From NCBI GenBank assembly GCA_002685965.1, contig NYZE01000058.1:67458-101137 (forward strand): 33,680 bases of DNA. Direction: 5' to 3'. This document shows, in pieces, positions 7,559-29,393 of this stretch. The notes below the pieces were generated by a model. It saw only the letters and a program-made list of their open reading frames with translations, was not told the origin of the DNA and did not search any database. Each line of letters starts with the position of its first letter. The stretch's first letter is position 1. Position numbers and translations under genes: made by a program. Origin of the DNA: Planctomycetota bacterium (lineage in GTDB: Bacteria; Planctomycetota; UBA1135; GCA-002748355).

Positions 7559-8440
7559 GTGAGCAACCCCTACCGCATCCTTCTCGTCGTCCTCGCCGCC
7601 GTCGTCGGGCTGAGCGCCCCGGCCCAGAGCAAGAAGAAGAAGGGTCAGTCCCTCATCCAGGTCATGCGGGCCACCACCGTCGACAAGGACGGACTTGCTC
7701 AGTGGAACAAGTGGGAAGCGCCTGCCTGCCCCGACTGCAAGACTTCCAGGCAGACCGACTGTCACATGTGCCGTGACCTCGAGGGCGAGCTGGCCAAGTG
7801 CCTCGAGTGCGCTGGCGCCAAGAAGAGCCCGTGCCGCACCTGTGCCGGCACCGGTCACATTCCTGACCCACTGAAATCGTGGATCTGTCCGAGTTGCTTC
7901 GGCGCCAGCGTCTTTCGCTGTTTTGGCTGCCACGGCAAGGGCGTGCACATGGTCAAGGGCGCCCCCAAACCTGCCAAGTGCATGCCGTGCAGCGGCAAGG
8001 GCACCTTCCCTTGTGCTGTCTGCAAGGGCAAACGCCTCGTCAAGGCCCCGCCGATAAAACCGACACTGGCGAAGGCGTCTACCAAGAAACTCAAGGCGGC
8101 GCGCAAGAAGGTCGCCGCTGTCTTCGAAGCGCTCAAGTCCTTCGAGCCGGACGGCCAGAAGGACCGAAAGTCAGTGAAGGCCTATCAGAAGCTCCTCAAA
8201 CCCGCCCTCCGGACGATGCCGGCACTCAAACGCTGTCAGACCATGGCCAAGAACCTCATGAAGTGGCACGGCAAGGGCGACGTATGGGTCGGCAACGACG
8301 AAAAGAAGTATGCAGTCTTCAAGCGCTTCGTGACGTTCAACAAATACTACCTCGAGCAGCAAGTAAAGCTGCTCGACCTGTGCATCGCGCGCGCCGAGCA
8401 CAACGACAAGGTCATCGCCGAGAAGAAGAACAAGGAGTGA
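7559..8440 (+). CDS. Exported DnaJ-type cysteine-rich zinc-finger protein
   Basis: GTG 7559 gives 293 residues with an N-terminal signal peptide (about residues 1-23, ending GLSAPAQS). Eight CxxC pairs occur at about 57-60, 68-71, 81-84, 92-95, 110-113, 121-124, 141-144 and 152-155. Several have the CxxCxGxG spacing of the DnaJ central zinc-finger, enough for four zinc sites. There is no J domain and no DnaJ C-terminal substrate domain; instead residues 165-293 are lysine-rich and helical. DnaJ-type fingers bind unfolded polypeptides in the cytosol, but here the signal peptide predicts an exported protein. The gene overlaps the next start (GTGA), so it is translationally coupled to the HtrA-like protein. 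A joint periplasmic protein-quality role is an inference. Confidence 0.8.
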   Translation: MSNPYRILLVVLAAVVGLSAPAQSKKKKGQSLIQVMRATTVDKDGLAQWNKWEAPACPDCKTSRQTDCHMCRDLEGELAKCLECAGAKKSPCRTCAGTGHIPDPLKSWICPSCFGASVFRCFGCHGKGVHMVKGAPKPAKCMPCSGKGTFPCAVCKGKRLVKAPPIKPTLAKASTKKLKAARKKVAAVFEALKSFEPDGQKDRKSVKAYQKLLKPALRTMPALKRCQTMAKNLMKWHGKGDVWVGNDEKKYAVFKRFVTFNKYYLEQQVKLLDLCIARAEHNDKVIAEKKNKE

Positions 8441-11298: not shown

Positions 11299-13578
11299 CT
11301 ACTTGGTCATGAACGTCGCCTTTACGCGCATCTCCCTGCCGCCCTGCCTCCAGGTCCAGATCGCGGTGATCATGCCCTTGATCTTCTCGAACGGATAGAA
11401 GGTCACGACACCCGGCGCCGTCGTGCGACGGATCTTGCCCGAGTCCATCACGATGACGCCGTCTATGCGCTTGCCACGATCGGTTGACACCGTGCACTTG
11501 TAGGAGGCTCGATCGCCGCTGATGCCGACGCCGAAGTGCATCGTCAACGGATAACCGACGCGCTTGAGGTCGCCCTTACCTTGTTTGGCCAGGACCGCCT
11601 GAAGCTCCGGACCGAGGTCGGCAACGGCCACGTCCCCAGGAATCCCGCGCATGCCGTCGCGCGGATGGGCAAAGTAGCCGCGCGCGCTCTTGGATGCCGG
11701 TGCGCCGAGCGCCGACACGGTATTCATGACGAGGATCTTGCCCTCCGTGAAGAGACCGATCGCGCCGATGTAGTTGTTGAGCAGGGCGTCGCGATAGCCC
11801 GGGATGTTCATCCACCTCTTGAACATCTTCTTGGCGCGGCCGAGGCTGCTGTTGGTCTCGACGATCGCCATCTGCGCGAACATCGCGCCGAGGTGCGTAC
11901 CGCCCACTTCTGCGTCCTGAGTATGCTCGTGCTCCGGGCCGCGCAGGTCCTTGTTGTCCCGCAGGTAGACCGCGTGGTCGCGGCAGCGCTTGGATAGGTT
12001 TGCCGACCACTTGACCGGGATCTTGCCGTGTTCCTTGCGCGCCTTGTTGAGCGCCGCGAGCCACTTCTCGACGCCCTTGCTGATCGACGCCAGCGGCGGC
12101 TGGTTGTTGCGGATCGCCTTGAGCACGGGGCTCGCCTCGGTCCAGAAGTCCTCCCAGCCCTTGTCGAGTTCGGCCAACGACAGGCCGTACTTCTTCGCGA
12201 ACTCATCCGCGAACTCGACCGATGAGACGCGAGCGTTCTGACCGCGCATGGTCAGCGCAAGGCGATCCATCTTCTGCAACAGCACAGGATCGCGGCGCAT
12301 CATGTAGTCGCTGAACGACCAGGCCTTGATGCGTTGCTGGTTGGTGAACTTGGCTGCTTCGCAGAACGGCAGATCGCGGGCCGGCACGCCGCCCGTGTTC
12401 TTCCAGGCCAGCTCGAGGTTGAGGTCCTTCCAGACATCGAAGTCTGGCGAGGTGTACTGCCGGTCCTCCTCCGATGCCGTCGTTCCCTGCTGCTTCTCGA
12501 GGTCGACCGAAAACAAACGGTTGTTGTTGAAGACCATGCCGACGAACGTGTGGCCGATGCCTTCGCGCAGGCCGGCGGACCCGAAGCGCGACCAGGTTTG
12601 CGCGACCTGGCGAACGCACGCATCCTGCAGGACCTTCTTGCTGCCGGTTGCGCCAACAACGATCCCGCCGAGGCCGGAGGTCGACGTGTTCTCGAGTTTC
12701 CACTCGAGATTGGGCACCATCTCCGCATTCGCCCTGAGAACCTGCTTGTAGGTATCCTTGGCGACGAAGTAGCACCACTCGGCGTTCCAGCGCGTCGCAT
12801 CATTCGGGAACGCACTCTTCGGGAACGCCACCTCGACGACGTGCAACGCGCGCTCCGCCCAGACGAGGGCCTCCTTGAGGTCCTCTTCCTGGTCGGGGTC
12901 ACCACGTAGCGTGAAGTGCTTCGACTTGACGGTCACGTACTCGACCTGCGCCTTGTCGAGCAGCGGCTGCTTCGAGTCGGTGAGCCTCTGCACCTGATAG
13001 TTGATCTTGGCCTGCGCCGTCACGGCGGCCTCGATCTTCTTGGAGTTGTTGTAGATCGTCTCCTCGAGATCCGTCCCGCTCAGCGCACCTACCGCCTTGA
13101 GCCTGAGTGCCGTCTCCGCTTCAGCGTCCTGGCGCACCCAGCGCAGTAGCATCTGGTAGTGGAACCGCGACTTGTCAGTGCGGTCCGCCTTCGCCCACTC
13201 CTTCGCCTTGCGCCGGTGCGCCGCAGCGAGACGCTTGCTCATCGACTCGTATTCGCGGAAGAGTTTTTCGCCTTCCTTGCCCGACCCCGAATCGGTTGTC
13301 GGATAGCTGAACCCCGACTTCGGCACCCACGGCCTGCCGGGACCGGCACGTGTCTCCCCGATGCCAGCGTGCGCTTCCTTGTTGTCGGCGTCGTAGAGCT
13401 TGATGACCCTCAGCCAGATCAGCTTGGCCTGACGCGGAAACCCCTTCTTCAAGGCCTTCTTCGCGAACGCGTTGAGGGTCTTCGCCTGTGACAGGTTGAA
13501 CTTGGCGTCATCGTCCTGACCCGGGACAGCAAGGCACAGGAGTGCCGCGGCCAGGCCCAGATGGAGCATGCGTGTCAT
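11299..13578 (-). CDS. Exported CAP (SCP/PR-1) domain protein with degenerate metallopeptidase-like region
   Basis: The ATG at 13578 gives 759 residues starting with a signal peptide (MTRMLHLGLAAALLCLAVPG). The frame is open further upstream, but the signal peptide and the -10-like element just before it fix the start. Residues 25-60 look like a TPR-type helical pair. Residues about 190-500 resemble a DUF1570/peptidase-MA-like domain: the GLREGIGHTF helix is present, but the preceding HExxH position reads RQVAQ, so zinc catalysis is unlikely. A CAP domain covers about 500-620 (LNKARKEHGKIPVKW, then CRDHAVYL). The last 140 residues are an unassigned beta-rich tail. CAP proteins are secreted and their bacterial roles are mostly unknown. 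It converges on the HtrA gene with a 9-nt gap. Confidence 0.75.
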   Translation of the reverse strand: MTRMLHLGLAAALLCLAVPGQDDDAKFNLSQAKTLNAFAKKALKKGFPRQAKLIWLRVIKLYDADNKEAHAGIGETRAGPGRPWVPKSGFSYPTTDSGSGKEGEKLFREYESMSKRLAAAHRRKAKEWAKADRTDKSRFHYQMLLRWVRQDAEAETALRLKAVGALSGTDLEETIYNNSKKIEAAVTAQAKINYQVQRLTDSKQPLLDKAQVEYVTVKSKHFTLRGDPDQEEDLKEALVWAERALHVVEVAFPKSAFPNDATRWNAEWCYFVAKDTYKQVLRANAEMVPNLEWKLENTSTSGLGGIVVGATGSKKVLQDACVRQVAQTWSRFGSAGLREGIGHTFVGMVFNNNRLFSVDLEKQQGTTASEEDRQYTSPDFDVWKDLNLELAWKNTGGVPARDLPFCEAAKFTNQQRIKAWSFSDYMMRRDPVLLQKMDRLALTMRGQNARVSSVEFADEFAKKYGLSLAELDKGWEDFWTEASPVLKAIRNNQPPLASISKGVEKWLAALNKARKEHGKIPVKWSANLSKRCRDHAVYLRDNKDLRGPEHEHTQDAEVGGTHLGAMFAQMAIVETNSSLGRAKKMFKRWMNIPGYRDALLNNYIGAIGLFTEGKILVMNTVSALGAPASKSARGYFAHPRDGMRGIPGDVAVADLGPELQAVLAKQGKGDLKRVGYPLTMHFGVGISGDRASYKCTVSTDRGKRIDGVIVMDSGKIRRTTAPGVVTFYPFEKIKGMITAIWTWRQGGREMRVKATFMTK

Positions 13579-13585
13579 GGTGAGG

Positions 13586-13591
13586 ATCTTA
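13586..13591 (-). promoter_or_regulatory. Putative -10 (TAAGAT) 7 nt before the CAP-protein ATG
   Basis: Read on the minus strand, TAAGAT is followed by exactly 7 nt and then the ATG at 13578. With the usual 6-7 nt from -10 to the first transcribed base, transcription would begin at or next to the A of ATG, giving a leaderless mRNA. No Shine-Dalgarno or clear -35 box is seen. Confidence 0.45.
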
Positions 13592-13766
13592 TCGTCGCCA
13601 CGCCGCTGCGACTGCTGCCCAGCGCCGATCACCACGGTCGCCATGGCGAGCAACGCCACACCCACAGGCCGGCGCCAGGCCCATATCGCGACAGGGAGGA
13701 CCCACCCATTGGACCCGGCATGATGGCCTCCAGCCCCTAGAACTGCTCCAAGGACACGGCTGCCGG

Positions 13767-13772
13767 TATCCT
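13767..13772 (+). promoter_or_regulatory. Putative -10 (TATCCT) 7 nt before the DUF1080 ATG
   Basis: TATCCT is followed by exactly 7 nt and the ATG at 13780, predicting a leaderless transcript. The 201-nt divergent space shared with the CAP gene holds this element and TAAGAT on the other strand; I see nothing else in it. Confidence 0.45.
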
Positions 13773-13779
13773 GCGCGCC

Positions 13780-14553
13780 ATGCGCACCACGGTCCTCGTC
13801 CTCGTTCTCCTCCCGGTCTGCGGTCAAGACCGCCTCGGCTACGACGACACGCCGCATCTTCCGGGAGGCAAGTGGCGGGTGCACGACGGCAGGCGACCAC
13901 AACCACGAGTCGTGACGCCCGGCACCAAACCCGGCCAGGCACCATCGGACGCGGTGGTCCTCTTCGACGGCGTCGACCTGTCCAAGTGGCAGAAGGGCAA
14001 TGGCAGCGACGCGCACTGGAAAGTCGAGGACGGCTACATGGAGGTACTGAAAGGTGGCGCGATTGACAGCCGCGACCACTTTGGTGACTGCCAACTGCAC
14101 ATCGAGTGGGCAACGCCGGTCGAGGTCAAGGGCAAGGGACAGGGCCGCGGCAACAGCGGCGTATACCTCATGGGCCGCTATGAGGTGCAGGTGCTCGACT
14201 CCTGGAACAACAAGACCTACCCCGATGGTCAGGCTGCCGCGCTCTACGGACAATCGCCACCGCTGGTCAACGCATGCCGCGCCCCGGGGGAATGGCAGAC
14301 CTACGACATCGTATTCCGCTCCCCTCGCTTCGCGGAGGGCAAGCTGTCCTCACCCGCACGGGCGACGGTCTTGCACAACGGCGTGATCGTGCAGGACGCG
14401 GTCAAGCTCATCGGCGCCACCACACACAAGCGTGCCGCCAAGTACCGACCACACAGCCCGAAGGGCCCGATCCGACTACAGGACCACGGCAATCCGGTGC
14501 GCTATCGAAATATCTGGGTGCGCCCGCTCGTAGCACCACAGTCGGATCGATAG
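13780..14553 (+). CDS. Exported DUF1080 protein (3-keto-disaccharide hydrolase-type domain)
   Basis: The product is 257 residues with a short hydrophobic signal (MRTTVLVLVLLPVCGQD); the cysteine at 14 might even be a lipobox. The DUF1080 beta-sandwich begins near residue 60 (VVLFDGVDLSKWQKG) and includes the conserved GNSGVYLMGRYEVQVLDS and GEWQTYDIVF stretches. It ends with GPIRLQDHGNPVRYRNIWV, the standard end of the domain. Some members hydrolyse 3-keto-glycosides produced by Gfo/Idh/MocA-type dehydrogenases. The Tat-exported oxidoreductase at 374-1630 could supply such substrates, but the genes are not adjacent and that link is inference. The DUF502 gene starts 4 nt after the stop, so they are probably cotranscribed. 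Confidence 0.9.
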   Translation: MRTTVLVLVLLPVCGQDRLGYDDTPHLPGGKWRVHDGRRPQPRVVTPGTKPGQAPSDAVVLFDGVDLSKWQKGNGSDAHWKVEDGYMEVLKGGAIDSRDHFGDCQLHIEWATPVEVKGKGQGRGNSGVYLMGRYEVQVLDSWNNKTYPDGQAAALYGQSPPLVNACRAPGEWQTYDIVFRSPRFAEGKLSSPARATVLHNGVIVQDAVKLIGATTHKRAAKYRPHSPKGPIRLQDHGNPVRYRNIWVRPLVAPQSDR

Positions 14554-17344: not shown

Positions 17345-17358
17345 GTAATTGGACGACG

Positions 17359-17428
17359 TTCGACCCACCGGACCTGGTACTCTCCTCCGCCTAGATGCCC
17401 AGCATGCTACCAGGTCCGGTGCGTCGAA
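17359..17428. repeat. Inverted repeat, 21-bp arms, in the divergent promoter region
   Basis: Arms at 17359-17379 and 17408-17428 are reverse complements at 20 of 21 positions, separated by 28 nt. The core is ACCAGGTCCGGT. The right arm ends about 22 nt before the TATAGT of the plus-strand gene. The left arm lies 15-35 nt upstream of the minus-strand GTG. Each arm reads in the same orientation toward its own gene, as expected for paired operator sites or a duplicated upstream promoter element; a cruciform is also possible. Confidence 0.55.
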
Positions 17429-17449
17429 AAGACCTATCGCACCGCGCGG

Positions 17450-17455
17450 TATAGT
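17450..17455 (+). promoter_or_regulatory. Putative -10 (TATAGT) 7 nt before ATG 17463
   Basis: TATAGT is followed by 7 nt (CCCTCCG) and the ATG, predicting a leaderless transcript. The same hexamer, spacing and very similar spacer (TCCCTCG) precede the paralogous gene at 20205. No TTGACA-like -35 is evident. Confidence 0.5.
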
Positions 17456-17462
17456 CCCTCCG

Positions 17463-19130
17463 ATGTCGAATCGGGTGCGTAGTGGCGTTCTTGTCGCGTG
17501 CATGTCGCTGTTCGCCGCGTGCAACGGCCATACCGGGTCGGTGCTGTTCAGCGAGGTCGCCCATACGGGCGTCGATCACGTCCACACCGTGCAACTGACG
17601 GGGACCTACCCGCTGCCCGAGATCATGGGCGCCGGTTGTGCGGTCTTCGATGCCAACGGGGACGGCCGCCTCGATCTCTACTTCACCGATGCCGGCAGGG
17701 TCGACTCCAACAAGCCCCCTACCGGCGGCGCCCCGAACAGGTTCTACCTGCGCCAGGCCGACGGATCCTATCGCGACGCCACCGCCGAAAGCGGACTGGG
17801 CGACTCGGGCTACGGCATGGGCGTTGCGGTCGGCGACATCGACAACGACGGCGACCTCGACGTCTACGTCGGCAATGACGGGCCGGACGCGCTCTACAGG
17901 AACGACGGCACTGGCAAGTTCACCAACGTCACCAAGACATCGGGGATCGTCGCCTCGGAGTGGACCTGCTCGGTCGCCTTCCTCGACCATGACAACGACG
18001 GCTGGCTCGACATCTTCGTCGTCAACTACGTCTTGCACGACCCAGCGCAGCAGTGCCGGACCCAGAGCGGCCGCCCGAGCTACTGCAGCCCCAAGGTCTT
18101 TCCAGGCCTCCCGGACCGGCTCTATCGGAACAAGGGCGACGGCACCTTCGAGGACATCAGCGCGCAGTCCGGCATCGCTCACGTGGCGTCCAACGGGCTC
18201 GGTGTCATCGTGGACGACTTCAACGACGACGGCTGGCTCGACGTGTTGGTCGCCAACGACGGTGAAGCGAACCACCTCTGGATCAACAACAAGGATCGCA
18301 CCTTCCGCGAAGATGCACTCATCATGGGTGTTGCAGTCAACGCGCACGGCGCGGCGGAAGCGAGCATGGGCGTCGCGGCCGGCGACGTCGATGCAGACGG
18401 CGACGTCGATCTGTTCATGACGCACCTCCTGGAAGAGACCAACACCCTCTACCTGCGCGAGAACAACACCTTTGTCGACGGCTCCCTCAGAAGCGGTCTC
18501 GGCAAGCCGAGCTTTGCCTTTACTGGCTTCGGCACCGCGCTGTTCGACATCGACCACGACGGCGACCTGGACCTGGCCATCGCCAATGGTCGCGTGCAAC
18601 CGGCGCACGGCGCCGAAGACGGACCCGACGACCAGGTTTGGCAACGCTTCGCGGAACCCAACCAACTGTTCCTCGGCGACGGACGGGGCACCTTCGCGGA
18701 CAGATCCGGGACTTCAGGGGTCTTCGGCCAACCCTCGGAGGTCTCACGCGCGCTGGCGACCGCCGACCTCGATGCCGACGGCGACCTGGACCTGGTGCTT
18801 ACCAACTGCCGTGGCCGCGTGCGGATCTACGACAACGTCGCCCCGGACAAGGGGCACTGGCTGCAGGTGCGCGCCGTCGACAAGGCGCTGAAGCGCGAAG
18901 TCTTCGGCGCGGTCGTGTTCGTACATGCCGGTGGCCGTGTGCATCGCCGCACCGTCAGCCCGCAGAACAGCTACCTGACGAGCAGCGCTTCGACGACCCA
19001 CTTCGGGCTCGGCGCCGCCACACGCATCGAGCGCGCCGAAGTCCGCTGGCCAGGAGGCAAGCTCGAGACCTTCGCGGTCGAAGCTGTCGACCAGGTCGTC
19101 ACGCTGACGCGCGGCGAGGGTAAGCAGTGA
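17463..19130 (+). CDS. Seven-bladed propeller ASPIC/UnbV lipoprotein, copy 1 of tandem pair
   Basis: The ATG at 17463 gives 555 residues with lipobox FAAC (Cys20); the open frame upstream is non-coding promoter DNA. Seven calcium-binding blade motifs run from residue about 60 (FDANGDGRLDLY) to 445 (DLDADGDLDLVL). The ASPIC/UnbV domain fills about 475-545, with SPQNSYLTSS, THFGLGAATRIE and VRWPGGKLETF. It should be an outer-membrane or periplasmic lipoprotein that binds calcium in each blade. The protein is closely related along its length to the product of 20205-21860. Its stop overlaps the start of a TPR lipoprotein gene (GTGA), so the two are coupled and may form a complex. Confidence 0.93.
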   Translation: MSNRVRSGVLVACMSLFAACNGHTGSVLFSEVAHTGVDHVHTVQLTGTYPLPEIMGAGCAVFDANGDGRLDLYFTDAGRVDSNKPPTGGAPNRFYLRQADGSYRDATAESGLGDSGYGMGVAVGDIDNDGDLDVYVGNDGPDALYRNDGTGKFTNVTKTSGIVASEWTCSVAFLDHDNDGWLDIFVVNYVLHDPAQQCRTQSGRPSYCSPKVFPGLPDRLYRNKGDGTFEDISAQSGIAHVASNGLGVIVDDFNDDGWLDVLVANDGEANHLWINNKDRTFREDALIMGVAVNAHGAAEASMGVAAGDVDADGDVDLFMTHLLEETNTLYLRENNTFVDGSLRSGLGKPSFAFTGFGTALFDIDHDGDLDLAIANGRVQPAHGAEDGPDDQVWQRFAEPNQLFLGDGRGTFADRSGTSGVFGQPSEVSRALATADLDADGDLDLVLTNCRGRVRIYDNVAPDKGHWLQVRAVDKALKREVFGAVVFVHAGGRVHRRTVSPQNSYLTSSASTTHFGLGAATRIERAEVRWPGGKLETFAVEAVDQVVTLTRGEGKQ

Positions 19131-20176
19131 GACCGACCTGCCGACTCACCGCCTGTCTCGTGGCGCTCGTCGCTTGCGCTGGCTGCAACGACGATCCCAT
19201 CCTGCAGCCTGACCTCAGGGGATCCGAACGGCCTGTCCAGGAGCGCATCGAGGCACGCCGGCGAACCGTCGACGCGGCACCGACCGCTGACAACTGGGCC
19301 AGCTACGCATATGCGTTGGACGCCCACGGCTTCCTGCCCGAGGCCGAGCAGGCCTACCTGCGCGCGGCGGACCTGGATGCCAAGAAGGCCTTCGAGTACT
19401 TCCATCTCGCCGGCGTCGCCGCACGAACGGTCGACCAGAAGCGGGCCAGCGAGCACCTCCTGCGGGCACTGTCGCTCCGTGACGACTACATGGCAACGCA
19501 CCTGCACCTGGCCGACATGGAAGAGAAGCTCGAGCGACTCGCGGAAGCCAAGGAGCGCTACGAGGTCATCACATCGCGCTGGCAGTCGGCACATGCCGAA
19601 CTCGGCCTCGGACGTGTCTTGCTGCACGGCGGGGATGCGGTGGCGGCACTTCCACATCTCTTGAAAGCGCAGGGCATGGCCCCGACGCACGGCGGAATCC
19701 ACGAAGCTCTGGCACGGACCTACGCTCTGCTCGGCCGCGTCACTGAGAGCAGGGCGGCGGCGCGACTCGTCGGCGACTTGAACAATGACCCTCCCTTCCT
19801 GGATCCCTTGCAGCAGCGCCTCGCTGCCGAAGAGGTCCAGTCGGGCGCACGCTTTCGCCGCGGTGGCGCCTTGGCCGACGCCGGCCAACTACGGGAGGCC
19901 ATCCAGGAACTCGAAGCCGGCCTGGAAGTTCAGCCAGGCTACGACGCTGCCAGGCACTTCCTCGCCACCGTGCTGGCACAGGACGGACAGCTCGACAAGG
20001 CCATCTCTCACTTCAGCTACCTCCTGAAGGCGAACCCAACGGACAAGGATGCGCTGGAAGCGCGCGCCCGTTTGTTCGTCGCGCTCAACAAGCGAGTCGA
20101 GGCGCAACGCGACATCCAGGCCCTGCTGCGCATCGATCCCAACAACGCCTGGGCCCGGCAGCAGCGCGGCCGATAG
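19127..20176 (+). CDS. TPR-repeat lipoprotein, copy 1 of tandem pair
   Basis: GTG 19127 overlaps the preceding TGA and gives 349 residues. The signal peptide ends at CAGC (Cys20) or LVAC (Cys17). The rest is paired helices of tetratricopeptide type, with clear units such as AEQAYLRAADLDAKKAFEYF, AVAALPHLLKAQGMAPTHGG and LDKAISHFSYLLKANPTDKD. TPR arrays bind other proteins. Tight coupling to the propeller gene suggests the two lipoproteins work together at the same membrane. The product is clearly paralogous to that of 21857-22918, sharing the N-terminal layout and segments such as EVQSG/EVHSG and the ending R(L/I)DPxNAWA. Confidence 0.9.
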   Translation: MRPTCRLTACLVALVACAGCNDDPILQPDLRGSERPVQERIEARRRTVDAAPTADNWASYAYALDAHGFLPEAEQAYLRAADLDAKKAFEYFHLAGVAARTVDQKRASEHLLRALSLRDDYMATHLHLADMEEKLERLAEAKERYEVITSRWQSAHAELGLGRVLLHGGDAVAALPHLLKAQGMAPTHGGIHEALARTYALLGRVTESRAAARLVGDLNNDPPFLDPLQQRLAAEEVQSGARFRRGGALADAGQLREAIQELEAGLEVQPGYDAARHFLATVLAQDGQLDKAISHFSYLLKANPTDKDALEARARLFVALNKRVEAQRDIQALLRIDPNNAWARQQRGR

Positions 20177-20204: not shown

Positions 20205-21860
20205 ATGGCACCAGTGCCGCCGGCCCACCTCGTCCTCGTGTTGTTCTCGGCGCTGGCCGCGTGCGACCGCGATCCTGCTCCCGAGCTGTTTCGCGAGCTC
20301 ACCGGCACGGGCGTCGACCACGTGCACACGGTCGAGCTCACGGGTGGCTTTCCGATGCCAGAAGTGCTCGGCGCCGGCTGTGCGGTCTTCGACGCCAACG
20401 GCGACGGCCTGCAGGACCTCTACTTCACCGATGCCGGACGCGTTGACATGGGCACCGGCGGTCGTGGCGCGGCCAACCACCTCTATCTGCGGCAGCCCGA
20501 TGGCACGTATCGCGACGGAACAGCGCCCAGCGGACTCGGCGACACCGGCTACGGAATGGGTGTTGCAGTCGGCGACATCGATAACGACGGCGACCTCGAC
20601 GTCTACGTCGGCAACGACGGGCCGGATACCCTCTACGCCAACAACGGCGACGGCACCTTCGTCGATGTCACGGCCAGGGCCGGCATCAGGACCCCGAAGT
20701 GGTCCACTTCGGTCAGCTTCCTCGACTACGACAACGACGGTTGGCTCGACCTCTACGTCGTCCGCTACGTGCACTACGATCCGCGGCACCGTTGCTGGAC
20801 CCAGGACGGGCGCGCGACCTACTGCAGCCCGAATGCCTTTCCGGGCCTGCCGGACCGACTCTTTCGCAACCGGGGCGACGGCACCTTCGAGGACACGAGC
20901 GAGCGGGCCGGGATCGCTGCTGTGGCCTCGAATGGCCTGGGCGTCGTCGCCGACGACTTTGACGACGATGGCTGGGTGGACCTCTTCATCGCCAACGATG
21001 GGCAAGCCAATCACCTCTGGATGAACAACCGCGACGGGACCTTCCGCGAGGACGCCCTCGTCCTCGGTGTCGCCGTCAACGAGCACGGCATGGCGGAGGC
21101 GAGCATGGGTGTCGCGGCCAGCGACGTGGATGGAGACGGCAAGGTCGATCTCTTCATGACACACCTGACCGAAGAGACGAATACGCTCTACCTGCGCGAC
21201 AAGTTCGGCTTCCGCGACGCGTCGCAGACCAGCGGCCTTGGCGAAGCGAGCTACCAGTTCACCGGCTTCGGCACCGTCCTCCTCGACATCGAGCACGACG
21301 GTGACCTCGACGCGGTCATCGCCAACGGCCGCGTCCTGCCGCGCGCCGGCGACCCCACGGGCGACCGGGTGTGGCCGCTGTTGGCGGAGACCAACCAGTT
21401 GTTCCTCGCGAAGGCGCCAGGGGCCTTCGCCCCAGCCTGGGCCGGGCCTTCGTTCGATGAGCCGATCGAGATATCGCGGGGCCTCGCCGCAGCCGATCTC
21501 GACGGCGACGGCGACCTCGACCTGGTGTTGACGAACTGCGCAGGCAGGGTACGCATCTACGACAACGTCGCACCCAAGACAGGCCACTGGTTGCAAGTGC
21601 GCGCAGTGGACAAGGCGCTGCACCGCGACGTCTTTGGCGCTGTCGTGCGCGTGCATGCCGGCGGCAAGGTCCATCGTCGCACCGTCAGCCCGCAGAGCAG
21701 TTACTTGACGAGTAGCACCGCAACGTGTCACTTCGGACTCGGCCCAGCGACAAGCATCGACCGCGTGGAGATCCGCTGGCCGGGCGGCAAGCACGAGACC
21801 TTCCAGGTCGCCGGCGTCGACCGCCTCGTCACCTTGGCCCGAGGTGAGGGAAAGCCATGA
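20205..21860 (+). CDS. Seven-bladed propeller ASPIC/UnbV lipoprotein, copy 2 of tandem pair
   Basis: The product is 551 residues with lipobox LAAC (Cys20). It matches copy 1 nearly end to end, for example TGVDHVHTVELTGGFPMPE against TGVDHVHTVQLTGTYPLPE. Seven blade motifs are present, from FDANGDGLQDLY to DLDGDGDLDLVL, followed by the ASPIC/UnbV domain at about 470-540 (SPQSSYLTSS, CHFGLGPATSID, IRWPGGKHETF). Differences are concentrated between blades, as expected if the partner or ligand has diverged. The TGA overlaps the ATG of the second TPR lipoprotein (ATGA). The propeller+TPR cassette is therefore duplicated as a unit. Its ligand is unknown. Confidence 0.93.
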   Translation: MAPVPPAHLVLVLFSALAACDRDPAPELFRELTGTGVDHVHTVELTGGFPMPEVLGAGCAVFDANGDGLQDLYFTDAGRVDMGTGGRGAANHLYLRQPDGTYRDGTAPSGLGDTGYGMGVAVGDIDNDGDLDVYVGNDGPDTLYANNGDGTFVDVTARAGIRTPKWSTSVSFLDYDNDGWLDLYVVRYVHYDPRHRCWTQDGRATYCSPNAFPGLPDRLFRNRGDGTFEDTSERAGIAAVASNGLGVVADDFDDDGWVDLFIANDGQANHLWMNNRDGTFREDALVLGVAVNEHGMAEASMGVAASDVDGDGKVDLFMTHLTEETNTLYLRDKFGFRDASQTSGLGEASYQFTGFGTVLLDIEHDGDLDAVIANGRVLPRAGDPTGDRVWPLLAETNQLFLAKAPGAFAPAWAGPSFDEPIEISRGLAAADLDGDGDLDLVLTNCAGRVRIYDNVAPKTGHWLQVRAVDKALHRDVFGAVVRVHAGGKVHRRTVSPQSSYLTSSTATCHFGLGPATSIDRVEIRWPGGKHETFQVAGVDRLVTLARGEGKP

Positions 21861-22918
21861 GAGCGCCGTGCGCTTGGCCCTTCGTGGTGATCAGCGTCGC
21901 ACTCGCTGGCTGCAACGGCAGCGACAACGGCGGCCTGATCCCCCTCCCCGAACTCAGCGGCGTCGAGCCTTTGGTGCGGGAACGGATCCTGCAGCGGCGC
22001 CAGGCCGTGGTCGAAACGCCGAGCGCCGAGACCTGGTTGAGCTACGCCCTTGCACTGCATGCCCACGAATACCGCGCGGAAGCCGAGCAGGCCTACCTCG
22101 CGGCAGCGGCCGACATGAAGGACGAGCGCGCCTCCAGAGCCCTCCACCTGTGCGGCGTCGCCACGCGCCTCAATGACAAAGCGCGGGCCCGGGTGCACTT
22201 CCTCCGCGCCCTGAAATGGCGCACGGACTACATCCCAACGCACCTGAACTTGGCCGAGATCGACGAGCAGCTCGGCAATGTCGAAGAGGCCATTCGACGC
22301 TATGCGCTCGTCGCCAAAAGGTCGCAGTCGCCACACGCCGAACTCGGCTGGGGCCGCCTGCTGCTTCGTTCCGGCAACGCCAAGGAGGCGCTCTTACACC
22401 TGTTGAAGGCGCAACGACTCGACCCGAAGCTCCCCGCAGTCCATGAGGCCCTGGCGCGCGCCTTCACTCACCTCGGCCGGACGGCCGAGGCCAGGGCTGC
22501 CGCCGCCCGCGCGGGCGACTTCGGCGACGCGCGCCCCTTCCCTGACCCCTTTCGGGAGGCGCTACAACAAGAAGAGGTGCATTCGGGAGTCAACTTCGGC
22601 CGCGGTGAGAGCTTGGCTGAGAGAGGTCGCTTCAAGGAGGCGATCGTCGAGATGCGCGCTGCGCTCGCGGCGCAACCGGACTACTCCTTGACCCGCATCT
22701 ACCTCGCGACGGTCCTGGCAAAAGACGGACAGCTCGACGCGGCGCGCACAGAGCTCGATCTCGTCCTGGCAAGGAACGCCAACGACAAGGACGCACTCCG
22801 TTACCGGGCACAGGTCTTCCTAGATCAGAACAAGCGCCCCGAGGCCGAACGCGACCTCCGCGCCTTGCTCCGCCTCGACCCCACCAACGCCTGGGCGAAG
22901 AAACTGCTCGGCCACTAG
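21857..22918 (+). CDS. TPR-repeat lipoprotein, copy 2 of tandem pair
   Basis: ATG 21857 overlaps the previous stop and gives 353 residues with a good lipobox (LAGC, Cys19). Like copy 1 it begins with a short linker (PLPELSGVEPLVRERIL) and continues with TPR-type helix pairs, including AEQAYLAAAADMKDERASRA, EALLHLLKAQRLDPKLPAVH and FKEAIVEMRAALAAQPDYSL. It ends RLDPTNAWAKKLLGH. It is predicted to be a membrane-anchored extracytoplasmic protein-binding scaffold that partners the copy 2 propeller. Only 33 nt separate it from the next propeller gene, which carries its own -10-like element. Confidence 0.9.
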   Translation: MRAPCAWPFVVISVALAGCNGSDNGGLIPLPELSGVEPLVRERILQRRQAVVETPSAETWLSYALALHAHEYRAEAEQAYLAAAADMKDERASRALHLCGVATRLNDKARARVHFLRALKWRTDYIPTHLNLAEIDEQLGNVEEAIRRYALVAKRSQSPHAELGWGRLLLRSGNAKEALLHLLKAQRLDPKLPAVHEALARAFTHLGRTAEARAAAARAGDFGDARPFPDPFREALQQEEVHSGVNFGRGESLAERGRFKEAIVEMRAALAAQPDYSLTRIYLATVLAKDGQLDAARTELDLVLARNANDKDALRYRAQVFLDQNKRPEAERDLRALLRLDPTNAWAKKLLGH

Positions 22919-22951: not shown

Positions 22952-25678
22952 GTGCGCCGCAATCGAAACGCCTTCGCCCTCGCTCTCGCGCTGGTGGCCT
23001 GCGCCTGCGACAACGGCGGCCCCGACCGCCAGCTCGCCAAGGAGATGGAGGTCATCGAGGAGGCGACCGAGTCGTTCGCGAACGCGCTCCTCGATATGTC
23101 GGTCGCCGTCCGTAACCGCGACAGCAAGACGGTCGCGCGTTTCTTCGCACCGCTCGTGCAAACGAACGGAATCCCGGGTGCCGCCGGTCAGCCGGAGACA
23201 AGTGGCTGGATCGTTCAGCAACATTGGATCGTCTCTGACCAGGTGTCCGGCATCACCGGCACGCAACTGGTGGCCCAGCTGGACCGGTTCCTTTCTGGCT
23301 GCACGGTCGAGGACGCGCGGTTCAAGGTCGCGAACTCGACCGTGTCCGGGCAAAGCGTGGTGGCCGCGGTCAAGTGGTGGCTCATCGCTCGCAACCCCAA
23401 GGGGCAGCGGGCCTGGACACGCGGTCGCGCCGATGCCGCCGCGACTCGCGACCGCGGGGCCTGGCGCCTCGACCGCTTCGTGGTCAAGAAGCTACACACG
23501 ATGACCGCGGTGGTTGATGTCTTCGACGAAGTCGCCGAGCCCGCGGGCATGGCAGCTACCGCTCGACCGGTCGCCGCGCGCAAGGACGAGCCTTTTGCGG
23601 CCTACGGCACAGCCACAGCGGACGTTGACCGCGATGGGTTGCTCGATCTGTTCGCCACGGGCGCCGACGGCAACCACTTGTACCGCAACCTGGGTGACGG
23701 CACCTTCGACGACATCGCCAAGCAAGCGCTCGTCCATCAGTTTCCACAAACGGTAACCGCGCCGCTGTTTCTCGACTTCGACAACGACGGCGACACCGAC
23801 CTCTTCCTATCGGCGATCGGCACGCAGGTGCTGCTCGAGAACCGGCTCGTCCCGGACAAGAAGCTCGTGTTCTGGGACGTGTCGAACAAGCGCGGTGTCG
23901 CCCGACCGGCAATCGGCTTCTCTGCCGTCGCCACCGACGTCAACGGCGACGGGTTCCCTGACATCTACGTCGCGTCGTACAACCGCTACGGAGAGGTACT
24001 CCCCGACAGCTGGGATGGTGCGAGCAACGGCACGCCCAACCTCTTGTTCGTGAGCAAGGGAGACGGCACCTATGCGGAGGCGGCCGCGCAATGGGGCGTC
24101 GCCGACCGGCGCTGGACCTACGCCGCCGGCTTCGCCGACGTCGATGAAGACGGCAAACCCGACCTCTATATCGCCAACGACTTCGGCGGCGGCAACGCGC
24201 TCTACATGCATCGCGGCGACAAGTTCGTCGACGAAGCCCGCTCACGCGGCGTCGTCGACGGTGGCTACGGCATGGGCGTCAGTTTCGCCGACTACGACAA
24301 CGACGGGCACCTCGACCTGCACGTGACGCGGATGTCATCGACCGCTGGCCGACGCATCCTGTCGCGGCTCGGCGGCGGCAAGCTGCCGACCAAGGACCGC
24401 CTCGAGCGCATGGCCGTCGGCAACGCGCTCTACCGCAACAACGGTGAGGGGCATTTCCAGGAGGTCACGGCGGAGGTCGGCCCATTCTCCGGCGGCTGGG
24501 CCTGGGGCGGCGGTTTCATCGACATCGACAACAACGGCTTCGAGGACCTCTACACCCCGAACGGGTTCATATCGGGGACCTCGCTCAAAGACACCTGAAG
24601 CCTCTTCTGGCGCCAGGTCGTGGCGTCCCAAGGCGACAAGGAAGGCGGCACGAAGCAGACCTTCGCCGAGCGTCAGGGCAACCTCTTCGCGGATGGCTTC
24701 TCGTTCAGCGGTTACGAGCGCGACCTCGTGATGCTGAGTCTCGGCAAGCAGGGCTTCCTCAACATCTCGGGGGTCTCGGGAGCAGACTCGCTCAGCGACG
24801 GCCGCGGCTCGTTGTTCGCAGACTTCGACAACGACGGCGACCTCGACATCTTCCTGCGCGCGATGCACGGGCCGGCGCACCACTTGCTACGCAACAACGT
24901 CGGCGACAGCCGCAACTGGCTGCGCGTCGCGCTGCGCGGCACAACCAGCGGCCACAATGCCTTCGGCGCCATCGTCCGCGTGACGACCAAGCACGGCGTG
25001 CAAACCAAGATGGTCACGGGTGGCTCGGGCTTCCTCGGTCAGTCCGACCCACGCTTGCTGTTCGGCCTCGACGATGCCGAGAAGGTCGAGTCGATCGAGA
25101 TCACGTGGCCCTCGGGCAAGAAGCAAGAACTCCCTGCCGTGGCGGCCGGCACCAGCCTGCTGGTCGTCGAAGGAACTGCGCCGACCTTGCTCACCGACAA
25201 GACCGGCAAGTTGCCGGACCCGCTCACTCCAGAGGCCCGCGTGTGGAAGACGCTGGCCTTCGCCAAGGGCGAACCGCTACCGGATGTGACCGTCGCCGTC
25301 GGCGCCGATCAAGTGAAGCTGGCAACTCTCTTGACCGCGGGCCGGCCCGCGCTCATCAATTTCTGGGCGACGACGTGCATCCCGTGCCGCACCGAAATGC
25401 CAGAACTGCAGCAGTTGCATGGCGAGGGTTTGGAGGTCGTCGGCATCAGCCTGGACCTGCCCGCGACGCGCGCACGGATTCCCGGCGTTGTGGCCGGACT
25501 GAAGGTCAAGTACCCGGTAGCCACGGTCGACGACGAGGCCCGCGGCCAGTTGTTCCGCAGCCCCGAGGTGCAGATTCCGCTGTCGATCTGGATCGACGCA
25601 CAGCACCGTGCGCAGGCGGTGTTTCGGGGTTGGTCGGCGAAGGCGAGGGCAGGAGTACTCGAGTTGGCGGGGAAGTAG
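22952..25678 (+). CDS. Candidate selenoprotein: propeller ASPIC/UnbV-TlpA thioredoxin lipoprotein read through in-frame TGA
   Basis: GTG 22952 to TAG 25678 is one frame of 908 residues interrupted only by TGA at 24596-24598 (codon 549). The N-terminus has a lipobox (LVAC, Cys17) and residues about 30-190 form an NTF2-like or unassigned domain. Blade motifs 1-6 lie before the TGA (DVDRDGLLDLF to DIDNNGFEDLY). Blade 7 (DFDNDGDLDIF), an ASPIC/UnbV domain (about 650-725) and a TlpA-like thioredoxin domain with CIPC (C809, C812) lie after it. A SECIS-like hairpin follows the TGA. If read through, Sec sits in DT-U-SLFWRQVV between blades 6 and 7. Without readthrough, the product lacks blade 7 and thioredoxin, and reinitiation at GTG 24620 would lack a signal peptide. 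A nonsense mutation or sequencing error remains possible. TGA is an ordinary stop elsewhere here, so code reassignment is excluded. Confidence 0.6.
24596..24627 (+). promoter_or_regulatory. In-frame UGA with bacterial SECIS-like stem-loop
   Basis: UGA (24596-24598) is followed by 10 nt and a hairpin: 5' arm GGCGCCA (24609-24615), loop GGUCG (24616-24620), 3' arm UGGCGUC (24621-24627). All seven pairs form, one being G-U. The loop begins 17 nt after the UGA. In E. coli fdhF the apical loop GGUC, closed by A and U, begins 18 nt after the UGA; here the closing pair is also A-U. The bulged U of the E. coli stem is absent. Confidence 0.55.
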
Positions 25679-25725: not shown

Positions 25726-26028
25726 TTGCCCGACCTACGCCACAACGCTGCCGCTTACCAGATCGACCTGCCCACGCCGATGCGCCCTGACGAGGTCGCA
25801 CCACCCGTCACCAGGCTGACCGGGATGGTGGCCATGGCAGTCGAACACTACTCGCCATTCCTGCCCGCGAAATCGCTCGTGTTCCCAGCGTTCGCGCATG
25901 CCGCACCCCGATGCCCAATCCATCAGCAGGGCGTTCATCCACCTGGCCACTGGACCGACGAAACCGACCTCGACAAGAACCACAAGCTGATCGCGGAGAG
26001 GAAGAAAGGCGCAGCATGGCCCGGATGA
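25726..26028 (+). CDS. Possible small hypothetical protein in the 337-nt gap
   Basis: TTG 25726 gives 100 residues with no recognisable family, signal peptide or membrane segment. In support, AAAGGA lies 8 nt upstream, third positions are mostly G or C as in the neighbours, and the TGA overlaps an ATG (26025) that is an alternative start of the large downstream gene. Against it, the start is a rare TTG, the sequence is proline- and histidine-rich, and any GC-rich stretch tends to stay open. Nothing else convincing occupies 25679-26015, although the minus strand also has an 82-codon open frame of similar weak quality. Confidence 0.25.
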   Translation: MPDLRHNAAAYQIDLPTPMRPDEVAPPVTRLTGMVAMAVEHYSPFLPAKSLVFPAFAHAAPRCPIHQQGVHPPGHWTDETDLDKNHKLIAERKKGAAWPG

Positions 26029-29000
26029 ACCGCGTGTTCCTTGTCGTAGCTCTGCTCGGCATCGGCGCCCTGGCCATCCTGCAGCCAGCTTGCACGCCCG
26101 AACCGAAGATCGGCGGCCGTGAAACGATCCCCGCCGACAAGCTCGACAAGATCCTCGCAGTGTTCAACCGCGGCGTCGCGCTGATGGAGCAGTATCAGCC
26201 GCAGAAGGCGGTAACGGCCTTCGAGCAGGCGGTACGGCTGGCGCCCAGCTGGGGCGACGCGCGCCTCAACCTCGGCATCGCCCTCCTCAACGCGCAGAGC
26301 GAGCAAGCATATCAGCGCGCCGAGCAGGAGCTGACCCGGGTCGCCACCGCCCAACCGGACAACCCGATCCCCCACTACGCACTCGGCGTGCTTCTGCGTC
26401 ACTTGAACCGCAGCGACGAAGCGCACAAGCACTTCGAACGCGTGCTGGCCATCGACCCGGACAGCAGCGACGTGCACTACCAGCTCGCAGAGATTGTGGC
26501 AGTCACTGATCCGGCCAAGGCGCAGGCCCACCTCGAGCGCGTCTTGCAGCGCGTTCCCCACCACGAGTCCGCGTGCTATCGGCTGCAAACACTGCTGCGC
26601 CAAACCGGGGACACGAAGCAGGCAGATGAGTTACTCGGTCGCTTCAACGAGCTCAGATCGTCGAAGTCCGGCATGACTGTCGGCTTCAAGTACGGGCAAA
26701 TGGGACGTTACGCGGAACTCGTCCGCACCTTTGGCCTTCCGAGCATCACCCGGGACGATGCCAAGGTCACCTGGAGCGAGCACGCGGCCGAGGCGGGCCT
26801 GCTCCAAGCATGCCTCGCCGACCGCGCAACGCCCCCCGGCCTCGCGATCGCCGACATCGACGGAGATCGCGAGCTCGACCTCGTCATAACCGGGACAGCG
26901 CGAGGCATCTCGTGCTATCGCAACCAAGGCGGGAAGTTCCAGGCGGTCACCGTGCCGGAGGTGCCCGGGGCCATCGGGGCCTTCTTCGGCGACTTCGATG
27001 CCGACGGAGACCCAGACCTCTACGTCACCTCTGACAAGGCCAATCGCCTGTTTCGCAACGACCGCTCATTCAAGTTCGTCGACGTCACCGAGGCGACGAA
27101 GACTGCGGGCGCGGCCACGGAGAGCTTCGGCGCCCAGTGGGCGGACGCGGACCACGATGGCGACCTGGACCTCTACGTCGCGAACAACGGCGCCCCGAAC
27201 GCGCTCTTTCGCAACAACGGCGATGGGACCTTCACCGACGTGGCAAGGGAGACAGGTGTCGACGGCGGCGATGCGCCAACGCTCGGCGTCGTGTTCCTCG
27301 ACGCGGATGGAGACCGCGACTTCGACATCTATCTGCTCAACGACGGCACGCCGAACGCGCTGTTCCTGAACGATCGCACGGGACGCTATTCGCCTGCGCC
27401 AACTTCCTTCGACGTGCTCGCTGATGCGGGAAGCGCGACCGGCGCGCACGTCCTGGACATCGACGGCAACGGTCTCGAGGACATCTTCCTCCTGCGCGGC
27501 GCTCACGAGCCCCTGGCATTCGTGCAGACCACCCGCGGGATCTTCACCCGCCAGTCGCTCACGCAAGCAGGCCATGTTCCTGGCGCGACCAACGCGGCGC
27601 TGGGCGACTTCGACCTCGACGGCGATGTCGACATCCTGATGCTCGACGTCGGACCAGCTGCGGCAGTCCGACACCAGTGGCTGCGCAACCCCGGCTTTAC
27701 GGCCACCCCGGTCGGCGAGCAACACGCGACCGCCACCGCTGGGGGCAGCGTCGCCGCCGACCTGGATGGTGACGGCACCCTCGAGGTCCTCGTGGTGCGG
27801 ACCGGCAGCAAGCCGGAGCTCTGGCGAACCCAACCGCCCGCCGGCCGCCACTGGCTCCGCATCCTGCCCGAGCGCAAAGCCGAGGCGGGCGGCGGCATCG
27901 ATCCGACCGCGGCGGGCCTGCAGGTCGAAGTGAAGACTGGTCGTCACCTGCAACTGCGACGCGTGCAAACGAGCGCCGGTTACCTGTCGAGTCCGCCGCT
28001 CGTCGCGCACTTCGGCATGCCGACGGGCAACGCCGACTATGTGCGTCTGCTCTGGGCGGATTCGGTGCTACAGAGCGAACTCGAGATCCCTGGCGACGGG
28101 ACCTGGATCGCGCACAAGATCGCACGCAAGCCATCGTCGTGCCCGATCATCTTCACCTGGAACGGCGAGAAGTTCGCCTTCGTCACCGACTTCCTCGGCG
28201 TCGGCGGCATCGGCTTCTTCGCCTCGCCCGGCGAGTCGGCACAGCCCGACCCGACCGAGGCGGTCCGTCTCCCACCCGAGCTCATCAAGGCGAAGAACGG
28301 GCGCTACCTGGTGCGGATCGCCGAGCCACTCGAAGAGGTGTCCTACTTCGACCAACTGCGACTGCGCGCCTACGACCACCCGGCAAGCGTCGAGGTGCAT
28401 CCGGACGAACGGTTTGCCGGTGGTCCACCGTGGCCGACTGGCGAGCCGCAGGCCATTAGACGCAGAGTGTTCCCGATCGCGGCGCGCACCGACACCGGCA
28501 AGGACGTTCTGGCGACGCTGCGCCACGCCGACCGTGACTCGGTCGCGCCGCCCAAGAGCAAGCGCTTCACCGGCTACGCCCGCGACCACTGGGTCGAGCT
28601 CGACTTCGGCAAGCAGCCGGCGCCCAAGCCAGGGCGCAAGACCATCCTCTATCTCTGGGCCTGGACGGAGTACACCTACTCGCACGTCAACTACGCCGCC
28701 TACCAGGCCGGGATCACGATGCAACCCGCGGTGATCGAGGTGCCGGACGGCGATACCTGGCGCGTCGCGATCCCACACGCCGGCTTCCCGGCCGGGCTGC
28801 CACGCATGATGACGGTCAACGTCAGCGAGCTGCCGCTCACCGAGGACGGGCGCCTGCGCCTGCGCACCAACATGGAGATCTTCTGGGACCAGGCCTTCCT
28901 CGCCGAAGACGTGCCGGTGCCGGACCTGAAAGAGCATGTGCTCGACCCCGTCGTCGCCGACCTGCGGCTCTTGGGCTACCCGCGCGAGTACTCGCCGGAC

Positions 29001-29393
29001 GGCCGCGACCCAACGATCTATGACTACCATCGCATCGACCACGGCGTGCCGTTCAAGACGATGGCCGGCGCCTACACGCGTTTCGGCGACGTGCGACCGT
29101 TGCTCCGCGACGTCGATGATCGCTTCGTCATCATGGGCAAGGGCGAGGAACTCGCCCTCGAGTTCGACGCCACCGCGCTACCGCCTCTCCCGGACGGCTG
29201 GTCTCGCACCCTCGTGCTCTGGTGCGACGGGTTCTGCAAGGACATGGACCTCTACACCGCGATGCCCGACACGGTCGAGCCGTTGCCGCACCACCGGATG
29301 GAGAAGTACCCGCCGCTGAAGCCGCCGTCCAATGCGGTGGAACTCAAGGCCTACCGCAAGAAGTGGAATACGCGCAGGGTGACGCTGCGCTAG
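26016..29393 (+). CDS. Large TPR + seven-bladed propeller protein with conserved-looking C-terminal domain
   Basis: ATG 26016 gives 1125 residues; AAAGG lies 6 nt upstream, and the frame further upstream has no signal peptide. ATG 26025, overlapping an upstream TGA, is an alternative. A hydrophobic N-terminus ends at QPAC (Cys26), a weak lipobox. Residues 50-235 hold TPR units (AVTAFEQAVRLAPSWGDARL and following). Seven blade motifs lie at about 285-600 (DIDGDRELDLV to DLDGDGTLEVL), followed by an ASPIC/UnbV-like region (SAGYLSSPPLVAHFGMP). The remaining ~420 residues begin SCPIIFTWNGEKFAFVTDFL and form an aromatic-rich beta domain I cannot name. The architecture fuses in one chain what the tandem pairs encode as separate propeller and TPR proteins. 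It is probably surface-located. Confidence 0.85.
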   Translation: MARMNRVFLVVALLGIGALAILQPACTPEPKIGGRETIPADKLDKILAVFNRGVALMEQYQPQKAVTAFEQAVRLAPSWGDARLNLGIALLNAQSEQAYQRAEQELTRVATAQPDNPIPHYALGVLLRHLNRSDEAHKHFERVLAIDPDSSDVHYQLAEIVAVTDPAKAQAHLERVLQRVPHHESACYRLQTLLRQTGDTKQADELLGRFNELRSSKSGMTVGFKYGQMGRYAELVRTFGLPSITRDDAKVTWSEHAAEAGLLQACLADRATPPGLAIADIDGDRELDLVITGTARGISCYRNQGGKFQAVTVPEVPGAIGAFFGDFDADGDPDLYVTSDKANRLFRNDRSFKFVDVTEATKTAGAATESFGAQWADADHDGDLDLYVANNGAPNALFRNNGDGTFTDVARETGVDGGDAPTLGVVFLDADGDRDFDIYLLNDGTPNALFLNDRTGRYSPAPTSFDVLADAGSATGAHVLDIDGNGLEDIFLLRGAHEPLAFVQTTRGIFTRQSLTQAGHVPGATNAALGDFDLDGDVDILMLDVGPAAAVRHQWLRNPGFTATPVGEQHATATAGGSVAADLDGDGTLEVLVVRTGSKPELWRTQPPAGRHWLRILPERKAEAGGGIDPTAAGLQVEVKTGRHLQLRRVQTSAGYLSSPPLVAHFGMPTGNADYVRLLWADSVLQSELEIPGDGTWIAHKIARKPSSCPIIFTWNGEKFAFVTDFLGVGGIGFFASPGESAQPDPTEAVRLPPELIKAKNGRYLVRIAEPLEEVSYFDQLRLRAYDHPASVEVHPDERFAGGPPWPTGEPQAIRRRVFPIAARTDTGKDVLATLRHADRDSVAPPKSKRFTGYARDHWVELDFGKQPAPKPGRKTILYLWAWTEYTYSHVNYAAYQAGITMQPAVIEVPDGDTWRVAIPHAGFPAGLPRMMTVNVSELPLTEDGRLRLRTNMEIFWDQAFLAEDVPVPDLKEHVLDPVVADLRLLGYPREYSPDGRDPTIYDYHRIDHGVPFKTMAGAYTRFGDVRPLLRDVDDRFVIMGKGEELALEFDATALPPLPDGWSRTLVLWCDGFCKDMDLYTAMPDTVEPLPHHRMEKYPPLKPPSNAVELKAYRKKWNTRRVTLR

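Follow-up and report, generated by a model that had tools for sequence, protein, structure and literature searches.

A planctomycete gene on the plus strand of the window (the whole 33,680-nt stretch of DNA analysed here) very probably encodes a selenoprotein, an exported lipoprotein whose selenocysteine at residue 549 (Sec549) would be reduced by its own thioredoxin-like domain. Taken by itself, the reading of the internal UGA as selenocysteine is close to certain. The first-pass annotation had proposed a candidate selenoprotein at this site, and the proposal is now supported by selenocysteine machinery encoded in the genome, by a TGA conserved in dozens of genomes and by a covarying hairpin. 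Beyond that earlier reading, the protein belongs to a large, multi-phylum family with a second copy in the same genome and a link between selenocysteine and a C-terminal CxxC motif.

The gene, its domains and its neighbours

The frame runs from a GTG start at 22952 to a TAG stop at 25676-25678 and, as originally claimed, is broken only once, by the in-frame TGA at 24596-24598. Pfam domains flank this codon on both sides, with FG-GAP_3 before it and UnbV_ASPIC and AhpC-TSA/Redoxin after it, and the scores exceed the model cut-offs (131 bits against 26.9 for FG-GAP; 74.8 bits against 23.4 for UnbV_ASPIC). The features of the gene are as follows.

22952..25678, + strand: predicted full-length selenoprotein gene of 908 aa that includes Sec549 and ends at TAG; frame open when TGA is read as U
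22991..23002, + strand: lipobox-like LVAC (Cys17), predicted lipoprotein signal, sequence VRRNRNAFALALALVAC; assigned from the motif only
23621..24948 (outer limits approximate), + strand: FG-GAP/CRTAC1-like beta-propeller housing the Sec site (PF13517/PF01839, Foldseek)
24596..24598, + strand: UGA predicted to encode Sec549, motif D-T-U-S-L-F-W-R-Q-V-V; homologous TGA in the paralogue and in scores of homologues
24959..25159, + strand: UnbV_ASPIC domain, aa 670-736 (PF07593, E 5.1e-21)
25265..25519, + strand: TlpA/ResA-type thioredoxin-like domain, aa 772-856 (PF00578/PF08534; Foldseek ResA/TlpA)
25376..25387, + strand: CxxC (C809-I-P-C812), which may be the redox partner of Sec549, given its co-occurrence with Sec among homologues

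From the lipobox we infer that the protein is an exported lipoprotein. An AlphaFold model of the whole chain, with Sec549 modelled as Cys, reached a mean pLDDT of 86.4 and a pTM of 0.87; in it, residue 549 opens a helix (549-561) and C809 lies just ahead of, or at the start of, helix 810-822. Foldseek placed murine CRTAC1 (9etn) as the top match of the propeller, with an E value of 4.5e-29, and returned ResA/TlpA matches for the C-terminal domain at E values of about 1e-7. The redoxin-type fold and the CxxC motif that characterise the TlpA/ResA group are thus both present by Pfam, AlphaFold and Foldseek.

Related genes stand on either side, all assigned by Pfam.

17349..19130, + strand: upstream FG-GAP/UnbV_ASPIC gene in the same gene row, with a 4-nt overlap with the next ORF
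19127..20176, + strand: TPR protein paired with the 17349..19130 gene
20205..21860, + strand: second upstream FG-GAP/UnbV_ASPIC gene
21857..22918, + strand: TPR protein ending 33 nt upstream of the selenoprotein start
25911..29393, + strand: downstream TPR + FG-GAP + UnbV_ASPIC gene, start codon uncertain

Between 17349 and 29393, FG-GAP/ASPIC and TPR genes thus stand in a row around the selenoprotein gene, with 4-nt overlaps, and the row is likely one operon. Elsewhere in the window, a large trypsin/PDZ protein (7879-11289) and a CAP-domain protein (11299-14253) are encoded on opposite strands. TGA is the terminal stop of 8 of the 16 main ORFs of the window, and therefore a change of the genetic code is not indicated. 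The first-pass annotation had argued the same from at least ten genes, and its conclusion stands.

Evidence for selenocysteine at the internal UGA

Insertion of selenocysteine by SelB, Sec-tRNA-Sec and a SECIS hairpin is an established mechanism, which we assume for Sec549: SelB with its Sec-tRNA-Sec, together with the hairpin described below, would place selenocysteine at residue 549. A genome without this machinery had been named as grounds for abandoning the proposal, and selA, selB, selD and a UGA-decoding tRNA-Sec as the genes to look for; all four are present. The tRNA-Sec scores 73.4 bits, above the Rfam cut-off, and has the anticodon UCA; SelA is found at an E value of 5e-121 and the winged helix of SelB at 2e-16. 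The selD gene (L206, G000:C2:6586-7506) adjoins selA and itself contains an in-frame TGA at the classical Sec site of SelD (SSSGGUVAK). Among 33 genomes with the TGA type of the propeller gene, SelA was found in 28 and tRNA-Sec in four of the other five; neither was found in the remaining one, the TGA-bearing MAG G073. Within the order, SelA proved uninformative as a co-occurrence marker, since it is found in all 61 genomes, even where the propeller gene is missing.

The conservation of the UGA extends well beyond one genome. A paralogue with 36% identity (L012, G000:C29:6429-7877) has a single TGA at the homologous site (FDY-U-SEFWRTVV), followed by a 12-bp hairpin around GGCGCAC-GGUC-GUGCGCC. 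Close homologues occur in 34 of about 61 related genomes, most with exactly one TGA inside, and alignment at the nucleotide level puts the TGA of the homologues at the matching position. In named genomes, the TGA form was found in Planctomycetota, Akkermansiaceae, Roseibacillus and other Verrucomicrobiota, in Acidobacteria-labelled MAGs and in a MAG of the Gemmatimonadetes (Gemmatimonadota), often in several copies per genome; the closest of these relatives, at 56-57% identity, are in two Acidobacteria-labelled MAGs (L126, L128). At all 13 of the 60-mers sampled, L162, a Planctomycetota MAG with a name, agrees with the G042 gene region, and L129 agrees likewise with that of G025; G042 and G025 belong to the order of the window, which is thereby placed in Planctomycetota. 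A codon-level pattern searched in 392 genomes of the phylum gave about 150 among the matches listed, all but 8 of them with TGA and not TGY, and the reversed-pattern control gave 6. The TGY matches, considered as possible Cys homologues, are at chance level, about equal to that control, and the two that were inspected at sequence level lie outside FG-GAP/ASPIC-type proteins. The distribution in Verrucomicrobiota is patchy, with matches to the TGA pattern in one of 145 genomes, the query genome G068, which holds five of them. Only one distant relative was found in the viral contigs searched. Bacterial selenoproteins are marked by an in-frame UGA inside an otherwise conserved protein and by a UGA at the matching site of homologues from further organisms, and the present gene shows these features.

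Two further observations concern the wider family. In one genus (f69/g146), contigs C253 of G214 and C204 of G243 hold four or five Sec-type genes of the DYUTHFWRQV type in tandem over about 15 kb. Remote FG-GAP/ASPIC subfamilies also contain in-frame TGA codons (L160 1910 and 4371; L165 4371; L093 5497 on the plus strand and 5480 on the minus strand), where the context is DLULPF for L160 and L165, and DLUMDF and DCUGEF for L093. Hairpins bearing GGUC were read by eye, unscored, in L160 and L093; in the minus-strand gene of L093 the loop reads AGGUCU, as it does in E. coli fdhF.

The hairpin that follows the UGA lies where it was first described.

24609..24627, + strand: bSECIS-like hairpin, stem 24609-24615/24621-24627, loop GGUCG 24616-24620

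Its stem has 7 bp, with G-C and G-U as the outermost pairs, and begins 10 nt after the UGA, placing the loop at 17 nt. The likeness to fdhF in loop distance also holds, with GGUC starting at +18 here and, by the same count, at +19 in fdhF (NC_000913). Folded in isolation, the 19-nt hairpin has an energy of -10.6 kcal/mol (z -3.97 against shuffles). In a 61-nt fold, a competing pairing wins over it at an unremarkable energy (z -0.13). A single sequence is therefore weak support, and the case for selenocysteine is one of comparative data.

In an alignment of 44 distinct TGA sequences, a 6-bp helix (columns 15-20/26-31, numbered from the U of UGA) is 99.2% paired and has 35 doubly changed cells; none of 500 shuffles reached the observed pairing or covariation score, and sliding the register abolished the helix. 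Double changes occur at three pairs of this helix. These 44 rows were picked for pairing in one register, a bias that makes a second, independent set the fairer test: in loci that played no part in defining the helix, all six pairs are in register in 44 of 61 TGA loci and in none of 8 sense-codon loci, and many of the other TGA loci form stems in a different register. Across the two sets, compensatory changes are seen at pairs 18-28 and 20-26 and, in L136 and L151, at 16-30, where C-G becomes A-U together with a switch of the Arg codon from CGN to AGG. Outside the 44 rows, 8 TGA loci fit a 4-nt loop and 5 fit neither register. Forcing all TGA loci into one register gives only 75% pairing because a minority use the 4-nt loop, and splitting them by register resolves the discrepancy. 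The usual loops across the family are GGUCG, CGUGA or GUG. What is found, then, is a hairpin directly 3' of the UGA that is conserved with covariation, as a bSECIS should be.

Could the hairpin simply be a by-product of protein-coding conservation? The motif FWRxVV fixes many bases (TGG CGN), and z-scores against synonymous recoding are modest for each sequence, with a median p of about 0.1. Loci that share the motif nevertheless differ according to the codon at the site: the energy z against synonymous recoding is -1.41 for TGA and -0.28 for sense-codon loci (Mann-Whitney 5e-5), and in unselected loci a stem of at least 6 bp is found in 60 of 61 TGA but 8 of 22 sense-codon loci (Mann-Whitney on stem length, 2.5e-6). 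Together with the compensatory changes noted above, this contrast makes a purely coding origin of the hairpin very improbable. It also answers a point raised at the outset, that relatives with a sense codon other than Cys and no conserved hairpin would count against selenocysteine. The sense codons are indeed mostly not Cys; the hairpin, however, is kept by relatives that have TGA, and most of those with a sense codon lack it.

A genuine stop codon, or an error of assembly or sequencing in one MAG that leaves the gene broken or split, can be given hardly any weight. Seen in a single genome, a 548-aa ORF does end at the TGA and a further ORF follows, but the TGA recurs in the paralogue and, across several phyla, in scores of independent genomes, with protein conservation on both sides. 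The concern that resequencing might remove the TGA is met in the same way: with dozens of independent genomes carrying TGA at the same site, sequencing error is no explanation. Reading of the UGA as some other amino acid, by reassignment or leaky readthrough (as Trp, for example), is likewise very unlikely, although the residues at the site give it some room. Cys orthologues are usual for selenoproteins, and alignment of the homologues with TGA as X, as the first-pass annotation advised, showed the TGA to be conserved, with sense forms that are mostly E, N, Q, A, S, H or D. Cys was seen once, in a divergent verrucomicrobial homologue (L202, DYCTRFW) in whose genome neither SelA nor tRNA-Sec was found. 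The Cys/Sec pairing thus appears nearly absent from the family, and with Cys found only once, Sec cannot be derived from such a pair. Against a non-Sec decoding stand the use of TGA to end other genes of the window, the restriction to one TGA per gene at a single site, the presence of a UCA-anticodon tRNA-Sec and the full machinery, the covarying SECIS-type hairpin in TGA homologues, and the loss of CxxC that accompanies loss of Sec. Selenocysteine remains by far the better reading of the codon.

A possible redox partner on the same chain

The C-terminal CxxC motif is present in 83 of 88 Sec forms and in none of 26 non-Sec forms (Fisher 5e-21, on rows that, like the other alignment counts, are phylogenetically non-independent). 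On a tree, the Sec label changes about five times, with at least three changes forced by well-supported branches, and Sec and CxxC were lost together independently at least 3-5 times. All non-Sec lineages with a readable C-terminus are without CxxC; in some the C-terminal domain can still be recognised, as in L105, which has WATWDAPS in place of WATWCAPC. This co-occurrence and co-loss suggests a redox relay from Sec549 to C809-x-x-C812, which we regard as more likely than not. According to this model, Sec549, whose helix on the CRTAC1-like propeller it opens at the N-terminal end, would react with a putative substrate (a peroxide, a disulfide or another oxidant), and the oxidised Sec549 would be reduced by the thioredoxin-like domain of the same chain. 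A DsbD_TM/DsbD-type protein is encoded in the genome and could recharge C809/C812.

The link between Sec and CxxC is strong without being universal, because Sec forms without CxxC exist. Of the five among the 88 Sec forms, four have a Cys next to Sec, as CU or UxC (the plus-strand gene of L093, L111, L175 and L226), and the fifth, L100, has neither. Loci added later supply further forms with neither: L160, L165, L222, L223 and, in L093, the gene on the minus strand. In L226 (KDCUTFYWREVV) the residue just ahead of Sec is a Cys and the C-terminal CxxC is missing, which suggests that a local Cys may serve as an alternative partner. Such subfamilies leave some room for a Sec that is not coupled to the C-terminal domain and acts instead as a metal ligand or in a reaction with a partner protein. 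FG-GAP propellers commonly bind Ca, and several of the polar or charged sense replacements are plausible metal ligands; A and S, however, are unfit for such a role, and both the association of Sec with CxxC, with its repeated co-loss, and the Sec-adjacent Cys in several CxxC-less forms point the other way. We therefore consider uncoupled Sec possible but the less likely of the two, and retain the relay as our working model.

Novelty and comparison with known systems

These proteins appear from their sequences to form a new selenoprotein family that uses an already known insertion mechanism. Its unusual features are a Sec in a propeller, scarce Cys counterparts and a fused thioredoxin domain. 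Search methods such as deep-Sep depend on the Cys/Sec pairing rule and would miss a family with almost no Cys forms, which would explain why it has been overlooked. A beta-propeller Sec that hardly ever has a Cys counterpart also runs contrary to that rule. Standard annotation likely splits these genes in two, and many genomes would therefore need correction. The broader picture, to which we lean by a small degree, is that Planctomycetota and Verrucomicrobiota have a widespread, multicopy family of propeller selenoenzymes that are exported, with Sec outside any thioredoxin fold, almost no Cys counterpart and a one-chain relay with a fused TlpA domain. If this is true, the family would be among the larger overlooked selenoprotein families and one of the chief reasons for the retention of the Sec trait in these lineages. 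Because Sec and CxxC are lost together, the chemistry is open to direct testing.

The 2026 inventory of the prokaryotic selenoproteome lists 119 families (PMC13188914), and its table includes those of Haft and co-workers (2023, 2025). The propeller/UnbV_ASPIC family is absent from the 119 (PMC13188914) and is covered by no model in NCBIfam 20.0, in keeping with the original remark that no selenoprotein of the ASPIC/UnbV-TlpA family was known to the annotator. The literature searched gave no link between selenoproteins and UnbV or between selenocysteine and ASPIC, with the 2016 candidate table S9 of PMC4807772 (two planctomycetes) lying outside the comparison. The present family would add one to the inventory of about 119, in phyla with little-studied selenoproteomes.

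Each part of the protein has a known counterpart. As in the bSECIS of E. coli fdhF, a short stem whose loop contains GGUC comes after the UGA; the protein is a different one, lacking the molybdopterin domain of formate dehydrogenase H. The C-terminal domain shares its fold and CxxC with TlpA, ResA and DsbE and is fused here to a propeller selenoprotein. The UGC-containing/Prx-like TlpA/Redoxin selenoproteins (NCBIfam NF041054, WAxxUGC) resemble it in their TlpA/ResA-type domain and selenium-based redox chemistry, but carry Sec in the thioredoxin active site, where the present protein has an ordinary CxxC (WATTCIPC) and its Sec about 260 residues upstream, in the propeller; against NF041054 (WAxxUGC_long) it scores 26 bits, with a cut-off of 300. 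The nearest relatives by sequence and fold are CRTAC1 and the UnbV_ASPIC-FG-GAP proteins (PF13517, PF07593), with murine CRTAC1 (9etn) as the top match. The literature searched does not list these as selenoproteins, and they share the propeller and the ASPIC domain; unlike CRTAC1, the protein described here adds a predicted Sec-bearing helix and a thioredoxin-like domain.
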